64,000 nt of DNA from Fibrobacter succinogenes (GTDB lineage Bacteria; Fibrobacterota; Fibrobacteria; Fibrobacterales; Fibrobacteraceae). The stretch's first letter is position 1. Every line of letters begins with the position of its first letter. Positions 34,681 through 37,463 of this stretch are shown here, piece by piece. The notes below the pieces were generated by a model. It saw nothing but the letters and a program-made list of their open reading frames with translations, was not told the DNA's origin and searched no databases. The DNA is taken from NCBI GenBank assembly GCA_902756345.1, contig CACVQR010000002.1, forward strand, positions 62,001 to 126,000, in the 5' to 3' direction. The translations under genes were made by a program, and so were the position numbers.

Positions 34681-35784
34681 ATGAACAAAAAACTCATTAT
34701 TGCTGCGGGTGCTCTCGCATTTGCTCTGACTGGCTGTGATCAACTTTGCCAGGGTCCCAAGACCAAGACTGCTTTGGTGACCGATAAGGATAAGTATAGC
34801 TACGCTCTCGGTGCCCATTTCGGTAACCAGGCTCGTTTCCAGTTGGTAACCCGCGATTCTATCGACCTCGACCTCGATCTCTTTATCCAGGCTTTCAAGG
34901 AACGCTACAACGAAGACTCCGCTCATTTCTTGATGAACGATTCCATCATCTTCCAGACTCTCACCGACCTTTCCCAGGCCCGTCAGGCAGAAAAGAACAA
35001 GAAGGATAGCCTCGCTGCCGAAGCCAACAAGGCTGCCGGCGAAGCATTCCTCGCCAAGAACAAGACTGCCGAAGGCGTCGTGATCACCGAATCTGGCCTC
35101 CAGTATAAGGTGATTACCGAAGGTACGGGCGCAACTCCGGCTGATGGCGACATCGTTAAGGTTCATTACACCGGTACGCTCCTCGACGGAACCAAGTTCG
35201 ACAGTTCCATCGACCGTGGCGAACCGCTTGAATTCCCGATCGGCGCCGTAATTCCGGGCTGGACCGAAATGCTCAAGCTCATGAAGGTGGGTGGTAAGGT
35301 CACCGCTTGGATCCCGAGCGACCTCGCATACGGTCCGCGTGGCCGTGGCCCGCAGATTCCGGGTAACAGCCTCCTCGTTTTCGAGATGGAACTGATTGAT
35401 ACTCACGCTGCCGATGCTCCGGCTGCTGAAGCCCCGAAGGCCGAAGCTCCGAAGGCTGAAAAGAAGGCTGCCGCTCCGAAGGCTGAAAAGAAGGCCGAAG
35501 CTGCAAAGCCTGCTGCCGCTCCTGCCGCCAAGCCTGCCGAAGCTGCAAAGCCCGCAGCCGCAAAGCCGGCTGCTGCCGAAGCCCCGAAGGCCGAGGCCAA
35601 GCCTGCTGCCGCTCCTGCCGCCAAGCCTGCCGCTGAAGCCCCGAAGGCCGAGGCCAAGCCTGCTGCTGCCGCTCCTGCCGCCGCAGCCCCGAAGGCTGAA
35701 GCTAAGCCTGCTGAAGCTGCAAAGCCGGCTGCTCCTGCCGCCGCACCTGCTGCTGCCCCGGCCGCCGCACCTGCTGCAAAGTAA
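34681..35784 (+). CDS. FKBP-type peptidyl-prolyl isomerase lipoprotein with Ala/Lys/Pro tail
   Basis: 367 residues. The lipoprotein signal is NKKLIIAAGALAFALTGC (Cys19). An FkpA/Mip-like dimerisation region (about 25-115, 'KYSYALGAHFGNQARFQL') leads to a canonical FKBP domain (about 130-240, 'GDIVKVHYTGTLLDGTKFDS', 'VIPGWTEMLKLMKVGGKVTA', 'IPGNSLLVFEMELID'). The last about 125 residues repeat PKAEAKPAAAPAA-like units. It catalyses proline isomerisation for periplasmic or surface folding. The tail resembles histone H1-like or wall-associated tails and could reach the cell wall, which is inferred. AGAGGA precedes the ATG at 34681. Confidence 0.92.
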   Translation: MNKKLIIAAGALAFALTGCDQLCQGPKTKTALVTDKDKYSYALGAHFGNQARFQLVTRDSIDLDLDLFIQAFKERYNEDSAHFLMNDSIIFQTLTDLSQARQAEKNKKDSLAAEANKAAGEAFLAKNKTAEGVVITESGLQYKVITEGTGATPADGDIVKVHYTGTLLDGTKFDSSIDRGEPLEFPIGAVIPGWTEMLKLMKVGGKVTAWIPSDLAYGPRGRGPQIPGNSLLVFEMELIDTHAADAPAAEAPKAEAPKAEKKAAAPKAEKKAEAAKPAAAPAAKPAEAAKPAAAKPAAAEAPKAEAKPAAAPAAKPAAEAPKAEAKPAAAAPAAAAPKAEAKPAEAAKPAAPAAAPAAAPAAAPAAK

Positions 35785-35814: not shown

Positions 35815-35839
35815 CCCCGCGATACTCGCGGGGCTCTTT
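35815..35839 (+). terminator. Rho-independent terminator after the FKBP gene
   Basis: A perfect 8-bp GC-rich stem CCCCGCGA / TCGCGGGG with loop TAC is followed by CTCTTTG. Confidence 0.8.
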
Positions 35840-35876: not shown

Positions 35877-36079
35877 TGTACAGGTTAAAAAAAGGATAAA
35901 TCTCTTTTTAGCCTGTACAAAAGTTCAATGTGAGCCAATATATTTTGGATTGTACAGGCTTATTTCTTAACAAACAGAGCTGTAGCCTGTACCATGGGTC
36001 AAAAAGTGCTGTTAATTTGTGTGTAATTTGCGGAATGTACAGGCTAAACAGGGTAGAAAGCCTGTTTCGGTCTGTACAG
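35877..36079. repeat. Array of three hairpins built on TGTACAGGCT
   Basis: The 10-mer TGTACAGGCT and its reverse complement alternate at 35877 (+), 35910 (-), 35951 (+), 35984 (-), 36036 (+) and, as a truncated AGCCTGT, 36059 (-), with a further TGTACAG at 36073. Adjacent pairs form stems of about 15, 9 and 7 bp. The array lies between the FKBP terminator and the promoter of the M23 gene. Confidence 0.85.
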
Positions 36080-36149: not shown

Positions 36150-37463
36150 GTGAAATTTATTCTGTCGATTGCGTTGTCTGCGTTTATGGCATTTTCGCTA
36201 CTTGGCTGTAACGAAGAAAAGAAAATTCAAGGTCTTAAGGATGAAGGCAATCGCCTACGCGCGCAAATCGATTCCCTCACGAATGAAATTGAGCAGGTGC
36301 AAATGCAACCAGGCAACTGGATTGTGCATAACGATACCGTCCGAGCTGGCGATGGCCTTTTCCAGGTGCTTGTCCGCATGCAGATTAACGAACGCGAACG
36401 TGGTAAGATTGTGCTTGCCCTCCAGGACAGTGCCGAACTTTCCAAGCTCCGCGTGGGCCAAGTCTTTTACGCCGCCATCGATTCTTCGGGTAGCGTCCAG
36501 CGATTCCGTTATGCCCCGAATCCGGCAAACATCCATATGCTTAGCCGTACCGAAAACGGTTACGTCTATAGCCTGATTCAAAAGCCGGTAACCCGCCGTC
36601 AGTCTGTTTTCGAGGGAGCCCTTACCGAAGGCAGCACCTTGAACGGCACGCTTTTCAAGGTCGGCATTCCCGGCCGTATGGTAGGTATCGTGAGTGGAGT
36701 TCTCCAGTGCAAGGTGGCTTTCCCCTTGGCGCGTGCCGGCGACAAGTTCCGCATTCTGCTCGAAGAGACCTTCTACCAGGATTCTATCTGGATTGACGGC
36801 CGGGTCGTTTACGCCGAATTCGATGGCCGTATCGTGGGCCACCACGAGGCCTTCCGTTACGAAGACCCGGACCCGAAAAGTTCCTTTAATGCCCACTATA
36901 CCGAAAAGGGCGAGGCGCTCGTGTTTGATGGCCTGCGTTACCCGCTTGACCGCCTGCATATTACGAGCCCCTTCGGTAGCCGCATTCACCCCATTACGGG
37001 CCAGCGCAAAATGCATGCGGGTATTGACTACGGTAGCCCCACGGGCACGCCGGTTTACGCCGTCGCCGAAGGTGTTGTGACGGTTTCGGGCTTTGATCCC
37101 TTCAGCGGCAACAAGATTGCCATTCGCCACCGCGACCGTTCCGAAAGTTGGTACATGCACCTCTCGGTCCGCGGCGTCAAGGTAGGCTCCAAGGTGGCTG
37201 CGCGCCAGTGCATCGGCCGCGTGGGCTCCACAGGCCGAAGCACCGGCCCGCACCTGCATCTGGGTTTCAAGAACGAAAAGGGCAAATGGATCAATCCGGC
37301 CTCCAAGACCATGATTGCCGCCCCCAAGCTCGAAGGGCAGCGGCTTGCTCGCCTCAAGGAACAGGTGGCCGAAATCCGCAAACAAATTGAGGCGACTCTC
37401 GCCGCCCCTGCCGTAAAAGCAAACGACACCACCGACGTGATGGTGCGTATGCGTAACTTGTAA
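36150..37463 (+). CDS. M23-family murein peptidase lipoprotein
   Basis: 437 residues from a GTG at 36150 with GAGG 5 bases before it. The lipoprotein signal is KFILSIALSAFMAFSLLGC. A short coiled coil follows (about 24-50), then an OapA/LysM-like region ('VRAGDGLFQVLVRMQIN'). The C-terminal M23 domain carries the zinc ligands in HAGIDYG and HLHLGF, with 'SPFGSRIHPITGQRKMHAG' typical of active members. It would cut peptidoglycan cross-links in the periplasm. A helical tail of about 50 residues follows the domain. Its stop codon directly abuts the stop of the convergent S41 gene. Confidence 0.9.
   Translation: MKFILSIALSAFMAFSLLGCNEEKKIQGLKDEGNRLRAQIDSLTNEIEQVQMQPGNWIVHNDTVRAGDGLFQVLVRMQINERERGKIVLALQDSAELSKLRVGQVFYAAIDSSGSVQRFRYAPNPANIHMLSRTENGYVYSLIQKPVTRRQSVFEGALTEGSTLNGTLFKVGIPGRMVGIVSGVLQCKVAFPLARAGDKFRILLEETFYQDSIWIDGRVVYAEFDGRIVGHHEAFRYEDPDPKSSFNAHYTEKGEALVFDGLRYPLDRLHITSPFGSRIHPITGQRKMHAGIDYGSPTGTPVYAVAEGVVTVSGFDPFSGNKIAIRHRDRSESWYMHLSVRGVKVGSKVAARQCIGRVGSTGRSTGPHLHLGFKNEKGKWINPASKTMIAAPKLEGQRLARLKEQVAEIRKQIEATLAAPAVKANDTTDVMVRMRNL

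Follow-up and report, generated by a model that had tools for sequence, protein, structure and literature searches.

The window analysed here, the whole 64,000-nucleotide stretch at C2:62001-126000 of its genome (G000, hereafter the home genome), carries an array of inverted repeats between genes for an FKBP-type peptidyl-prolyl isomerase and an M23-type cell-wall peptidase (Table 1). The six copies of a 10-mer that the original prediction had placed at 35877-36079, alternating in orientation, were all found there, and they do lie between the FKBP-gene terminator and the peptidase gene. With one mismatch allowed, the window held six matches to the 10-mer against 1.8 expected, and none of 100 shuffles reached six; five of these matches fall inside the array, whose sixth copy has two mismatches. 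Beyond what had been predicted, the arms of every unit were fixed 41 bp apart and the unit-to-unit spacing was quantised. In relatives that lack the array, the M23 gene start comes directly after the FKBP terminator. The 3′ end of the FKBP gene (window 35400-35784) forms a long Ala/Pro/Lys/Glu repeat tail, the length and order of which differ between species.

Table 1. Features of the array locus and its neighbours, in window coordinates.
Feature	Position	Strand	Details
Whole phased-dyad array (3 dyads, 200 bp)	35878..36077	.	Dispersed copy without a (putative) nuclease gene
Dyad 1, 41 bp	35878..35918	.	Half-sites GTACAGGTTAAA (+, 35878-35889) and GTACAGGCTAAA (-, 35907-35918)
Linker 1, 33 bp	35919..35951	.	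44 bp minus one helical turn
Dyad 2, 41 bp	35952..35992	.	Half-sites GTACAGGCTTAT (+, 35952) and GTACAGGCTACA (-, 35981-35992)
Linker 2, 44 bp	35993..36036	.	A/T-rich blocks at 10.5-bp intervals, phased with the dyads
Dyad 3, 41 bp	36037..36077	.	Half-sites GTACAGGCTAAA (+, 36037) and GTACAGACCGAA (-, 36066-36077)
FKBP-type peptidyl-prolyl isomerase gene (upstream neighbour)	34681..35784	+	Annotated by sequence reading; start inferred
FKBP-gene terminator	about 35818-35838
M23-type cell-wall peptidase gene (downstream neighbour)	36150..37463	+	Annotated by sequence reading; start about 36150

Further copies, on which the original prediction had staked itself, exist: a search of the home genome with one arm, then with both, located 29 dyads, all within eight extragenic arrays of 3-4 dyads each. 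The position matrix from these arrays gave the 41-bp dyad consensus GTACAGGCYAAA-N17-TTTRGCCTGTAC, in which 17 variable bases separate two arms that point towards each other; 28 of the 29 dyads had this length, and one had 40 bp. Because a two-mismatch search of the same genome gave no more dyads above control (6 residual hits outside arrays, 5 in the control), every dyad belongs to an array. The gaps between dyads were 33 bp (n = 2), 43-45 bp (n = 18) and 55 bp (n = 1), that is, 44 bp plus or minus one helical turn, and the Rayleigh p for this 33/44/55 quantisation was about 1e-12.

The arrays occupy intergenic space beside functionally unrelated genes, among them, as named by sequence reading, glgB, rpiA, GAPDH, prfB, nhaA and priA. 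Since arrays adjoin genes of unrelated function, the M23 peptidase neighbour of the window array is incidental. The arrays do not fit a transcription-factor regulon: the neighbouring genes lack functional coherence, and of the eight home arrays, four are placed where convergent genes meet. We also observed that the GAPDH-side array has, at its outer edge (G000:C6:248134-248155; G030:C1:1105127), back-to-back half-sites that share one GTAC (TTTGATCTGTACAGGCTA), an arrangement conserved in two species.

The three successive stems of the original prediction do form when the plus strand of the window array is folded as RNA (-73.4 kcal/mol, z -4.9). The minus strand, however, folds too (z -4.3), and a significant folding energy by itself is a consequence of the inverted repeats. 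In a 28-row dyad alignment, arm pairing was 87.5%, compared with 88.5% after shuffling, and the covariation score lay below the shuffled mean; the arms thus show no compensatory changes. Moreover, the window array had no Rfam match, the interiors of other units were generally unpaired, and the half-site GTACAGGCTAAA is not itself a stem. The structured RNA that had been offered as one reading of the locus was not supported.

A different order was found in the linkers. The 44-bp linkers of the home genome carry A/T-rich blocks at about positions 2, 12, 22, 33 and 43, a 10.5-bp rhythm that none of 2000 shuffles and none of 5000 rotations reproduced; linker 2 of the window array gave the strongest single-linker A/T signal among 14 linkers. 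The rhythm continues through the dyads; counted from the centre of a dyad, its peaks lie near 10, 21-23, 31, 42, 53 and 62-64 bp. It is not inherited, because linkers of different arrays are no more alike than the A/T pattern predicts (identity 0.297, with 0.303 expected). By a wedge model, each of the eight arrays is predicted to be more curved than shuffled sequence (z 1.4 to 13). Since the gaps are helically quantised, the A/T rhythm is phase-locked and the arms lack covariation, we conclude that the unit is a site in duplex DNA, wrapped or curved and presumably contacted by protein, and not an RNA hairpin. The regulator-binding array of the original prediction was partly right, in that the behaviour of the units is that of protein-binding dyads lying on a single DNA face.

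It might still be argued that the three hairpins act as a structured RNA or as bidirectional intrinsic terminators, given the stable folds predicted for both strands and the array beside rpiA (G000:C6:79176-79565). In G030 and G005, a terminator of rpiA occupies the position that this array has in the home genome, and a run of eight T comes after the first unit of the array, which might terminate transcription there. Nevertheless, we regard the RNA or terminator explanation as very unlikely: besides the missing covariation, pairing no higher than in shuffles, the lack of an Rfam match and the unpaired interiors of other units, 10.5-bp phasing has no meaning for RNA, and the window array comes after a separate, good terminator. 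Terminator function as such was rejected on the last point and because T runs follow only some units.

At the FKBP-M23 site, the array was present in G000, G005, G102 and G020 and cleanly absent from G068, G003, G030, G103, G010, G080 and others; at the other sites checked, the home-type array was missing from most relatives. The relatives bearing the motif are labelled Fibrobacter succinogenes MAGs. Between the window array and its ortholog in G005, 1 of 72 half-site positions had changed, compared with 20 of 128 linker positions. The length of linker 1 was 33, 33 and 34 bp in the home genome, G005 and G102, respectively, with the sequence largely changed. Half-sites are thus conserved in place, as is the phase, while whole arrays are gained and lost between close species. 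The expected conservation in relatives was therefore found, and the palindromic repeat element proposed earlier was borne out in part, the array as a whole being extragenic and dispersed, with units gained and lost; decay of the window array was not evident, since half-sites and phase are kept in orthologous arrays. The constraint on these orthologous arrays argues that the cell may gain something from them.

The number of units differs between species by exact steps of 74 or 85 bp. Such steps would also be expected if the arrays were products of tandem-repeat expansion and the 85-bp period only a relic of unit duplication, and some adjacent units are indeed duplicates (the C4 linkers are 73% identical). 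Yet the spacings of 33, 44 and 55 bp, and elsewhere of 24-109 bp, all stand on a 10.5-bp ladder, and unrelated linkers have the A/T phase alone in common. Expansion as the sole cause is disfavoured, and we find this explanation scarcely credible.

In G071, four arrays are dispersed copies of one another, the best pair being 87% identical over about 313 bp. The copies are bounded by outer half-sites, the similarity beginning at an outermost half-site, and whole arrays have therefore moved or been copied. Comparison of empty and filled sites (FKBP-M23, rpiA and nhaA) revealed no clear target-site duplication, the edges being too diverged.

The arrays are not confined to the half-site of the home genome. 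A de novo scan of another species yielded an array with half-site TTACATACTAAA, and the general pattern TACANNYYAA-N18-20-TTRRNNTGTA, searched across 80 genomes, matched in 32 of them, with almost no control matches. The dyads found with it took three main forms, with GG, TA or GA at the two variable bases. TA-type arrays obey the spacing rule as well, with gaps of 24-25, 34, 45-46, 57, 96-98 and 109 bp, and in their 97-bp linkers the A/T rhythm persists across nine turns (matched by 0 of 2000 rotations). In G003, a genome without the protein family described below and without dyads, 400 kb scanned de novo contained no array of any type. Two further candidates were rejected. An origin in phages or another phylum was set aside because outside Fibrobacter, whether in bacteria or in viral contigs, dyads occurred singly and never in arrays; the viral contigs held neither TA-type dyads nor relatives of the protein. 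A centromere or terminus site was dismissed since the array-flanking genes map widely over the G081 and G082 chromosomes.

Among the genes flanking the TA-type arrays and one home array are members of one family of proteins of ~280 aa, found in 49 of the 80 genomes. The family core, SKSE...PDFT...WEH, contains the E...PD...E motif of the PD-(D/E)XK superfamily and is read as PD-(D/E)XK-like; SKSE169, PD200FT and WE215H (G006:C83 numbering) are kept in at least 92% of 49 proteins. Neither a Pfam nor an NCBIfam model covers the family, and sequence comparison gave no PDB relative. The C-terminal ~115 residues match the C-terminus of the PADLOC candidate PDC-S68 (E 2e-22), and this part also resembles the C-termini of AAA ATPases or helicases on plasmids. 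The nuclease assignment, which rests on the motifs and on the C-terminal similarity to PDC-S68 and to helicases, is putative.

The association of these genes with arrays was strong. An array with alternating half-sites lay within 574 bp upstream of 43 of the 49 family genes, compared with 2 of 581 ordinary genes (Fisher p about 1e-57); of the remaining six, three had an array downstream and three a weak array with the half-site of sister genes. Five family genes were flanked by arrays on both sides. Of 19 genomes with at least two dyads, 17 had a close clade of the nuclease-like family, against 9 of the 61 others, with a p value (about 4e-9) that is too small because the genomes are related. 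In gene-adjacent arrays, the gaps differ by multiples of 10.5 bp, which none of 20000 random sets matched. The single family member of the home genome (G000:C1:105464-106303, 279 aa) has its start codon 35 bp from a GTACAGG array, the type of the window, at C1:106338; the nearest relatives of this protein carry CGGCAGACCAAA.

Half-sites were specific to clades (GTACAGGCYAAA, TTACATACTAAA, CGTACCTATAAA, GGGGCGTATAAA, GGGGCATATAAA, GATAGGACTAAA, TGCTACTAAA and others) and mostly have an A/T-rich, YTAAA-like inner end in common. In the protein tree, genes with like half-sites group together, and half-site similarity tracks the N-terminal part only slightly better than the C-terminal part (rho 0.43 and 0.33). 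We also note that G077, G024 and G079 carry seven or eight family copies per genome, yet no TACA-type dyads; these copies probably use other half-site types, such as the TAGGTTACTAAA found at G077:C103. In a 400-kb stretch of G065, a family gene stands with a TAGGACTAAA array, and a second, dispersed TAGGACTAAA array lies 75 kb away on the same contig. The same stretch has an array of a further type at about C9:183298, with half-site TGGGGATTAAA and gaps of 54 and 76 bp; no family gene was seen nearby, and its partner may be undetected or lost.

These observations would also be accommodated if the arrays were operators of an ordinary transcription factor or nucleoid protein, with the nuclease-like gene merely a regulated neighbour. 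The phased dyads, their cooperative-looking spacing and their conservation in place all agree with this explanation, as does the position of an array in the promoter region of the nuclease-like gene. However, half of the home arrays, those between convergent genes, have no promoter nearby, and the flanking genes, read by eye, have no common function. Half-site type goes with the clade of the nuclease-like protein encoded next to the array, and a separate factor would not account for this. We therefore consider the operator explanation unlikely.

Arrays and genes are not strictly coupled. GTACAGG arrays occur in G005 and G102, which have no family gene, and in G080 and G020, whose family genes have other half-site types; arrays can therefore outlive, precede or persist without their cognate gene. 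At the nhaA intergenic site, the home genome has a GTACAGG array and no family gene (G000:C1:338220-338516), four relatives (G080:C6:91909-92159, G061:C105, G020:C2 and G030:C9) have a TTACATAC array with a nuclease-like gene, and G068 (C123) has nothing. This site is a hotspot taken up by different array types.

A purely selfish miniature transposable element (MITE-like), which the nuclease-like protein would move in trans while the cell gained nothing, would explain why dispersed copies are bounded by outer half-sites, why presence at orthologous sites is patchy and why arrays lie on both sides of the gene in five cases. It would not explain why half-sites and linker lengths are kept in orthologous copies that do not move. 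Furthermore, the home arrays have no recent linker similarity among them, so they are old yet intact. We judge a purely selfish element to be quite unlikely.

The arrays and the ~280-aa protein probably make up a two-part system, in which the protein would bind, and may move, its dispersed target arrays. In this model, the window array is one of the dispersed copies of the DNA half and codes for nothing. The DNA half consists of 3-4 dyads, each a pair of inverted 12-bp half-sites with a fixed separation. Successive dyads are joined by A/T-phased linkers whose lengths differ by full turns of the helix, which would put every dyad on one side of a bent duplex. The likeliest candidate for the protein half is the ~280-aa PD-(D/E)XK-like protein, which may use its variable N-terminal part to bind the dyads, forming a symmetric assembly. 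Three to four bound dyads could then assemble cooperatively and wrap the DNA. Where a family gene has its array upstream, the array would cover the promoter, and the protein may regulate its own expression. The same complex could have spread arrays to new intergenic sites, the dispersed arrays being further binding targets. The most specific form of this model, which we advance tentatively and hold to be somewhat short of an even chance, is a protein of nuclease fold whose 12-bp specificity switches rapidly and which forms a nucleosome-like wrap of 200-300 bp on 3-4 phased dyads, controls its own gene and spreads its arrays through the genome, where the host would keep them under selection.

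Among known systems, REPIN-RAYT is organised most similarly in several respects. Dispersed inverted REP pairs are duplicated there by the RAYT transposase, and REPINs persist in genomes without RAYT (PMC8049555). The Fibrobacter arrays are likewise dispersed extragenic inverted repeats, with paired half-sites and a variable spacer (PMC8049555; PMC3116915, PMC8266576, PMC3733652). In organisation only, they also share an associated nuclease gene (putative here) next to its own repeat type and repeats that outlast the gene. In contrast to the Y1/HUH tyrosine transposase TnpA-REP, the Fibrobacter partner belongs to a PD-(D/E)XK-like family. The arrays lack the GTAG/CGTC tag described for REPs and any hairpin constraint, and their element consists of 3-4 dyads with linkers that are A/T-phased and quantised by 10.5 bp. 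No Y1/HUH transposase (PF01797, Y1_Tnp) was matched in the home genome, which is 99.2% complete; among array-rich relatives, G006 and G080 had none and G071 had two. Membership in REP/REPIN-RAYT was rejected because the home genome has no Y1 transposase and the repeats are not hairpin-constrained. For these reasons, and because the searches made found the protein families unrelated, the Fibrobacter arrays and their protein appear to form a system of their own, as judged against open-licence papers, in which we found no description of such arrays.

For BIMEs, clusters of alternately oriented extragenic REPs, roles in supercoiling and further DNA processes have been proposed (PMC3733652). The Fibrobacter arrays are also clustered, alternately oriented extragenic repeats, but BIMEs have no cognate gene of the ~280-aa family, and what the Fibrobacter linkers conserve is their phase and not their sequence. 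A CRISPR array, with near-identical direct repeats and unique spacers, was rejected, because here successive repeats are in opposite orientation and the two intervals are both variable. MITEs are short, non-coding, dispersed elements bounded by inverted repeats, with a possible partner gene in trans. The G071 copies resemble them in being dispersed and bounded by inverted outer half-sites; unlike in MITEs, the internal dyads repeat the terminal sites throughout, the arrays are constrained in place, and no target-site duplication was seen at sites with such diverged edges. With the PADLOC candidate defence proteins PDC-S68, the family has a common C-terminus, whereas those models are about 1200 aa long, and the ~280-aa protein has a different N-terminal half, which correlates with the DNA site, and an array.

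If the two-part system is real, it would be a second independent case, beside REPIN-RAYT, of dispersed extragenic repeats with a dedicated nuclease-like gene, built on duplex wrapping in place of single-strand hairpins. The matched set of about 50 proteins and their half-sites, in which specificity has switched several times within a single tree, provides data on how a DNA-binding domain changes its sequence preference. The phased arrays supply exact putative binding sites and spacing rules, which are testable at once with purified protein. They also bear on why bacterial interspersed repeats persist.
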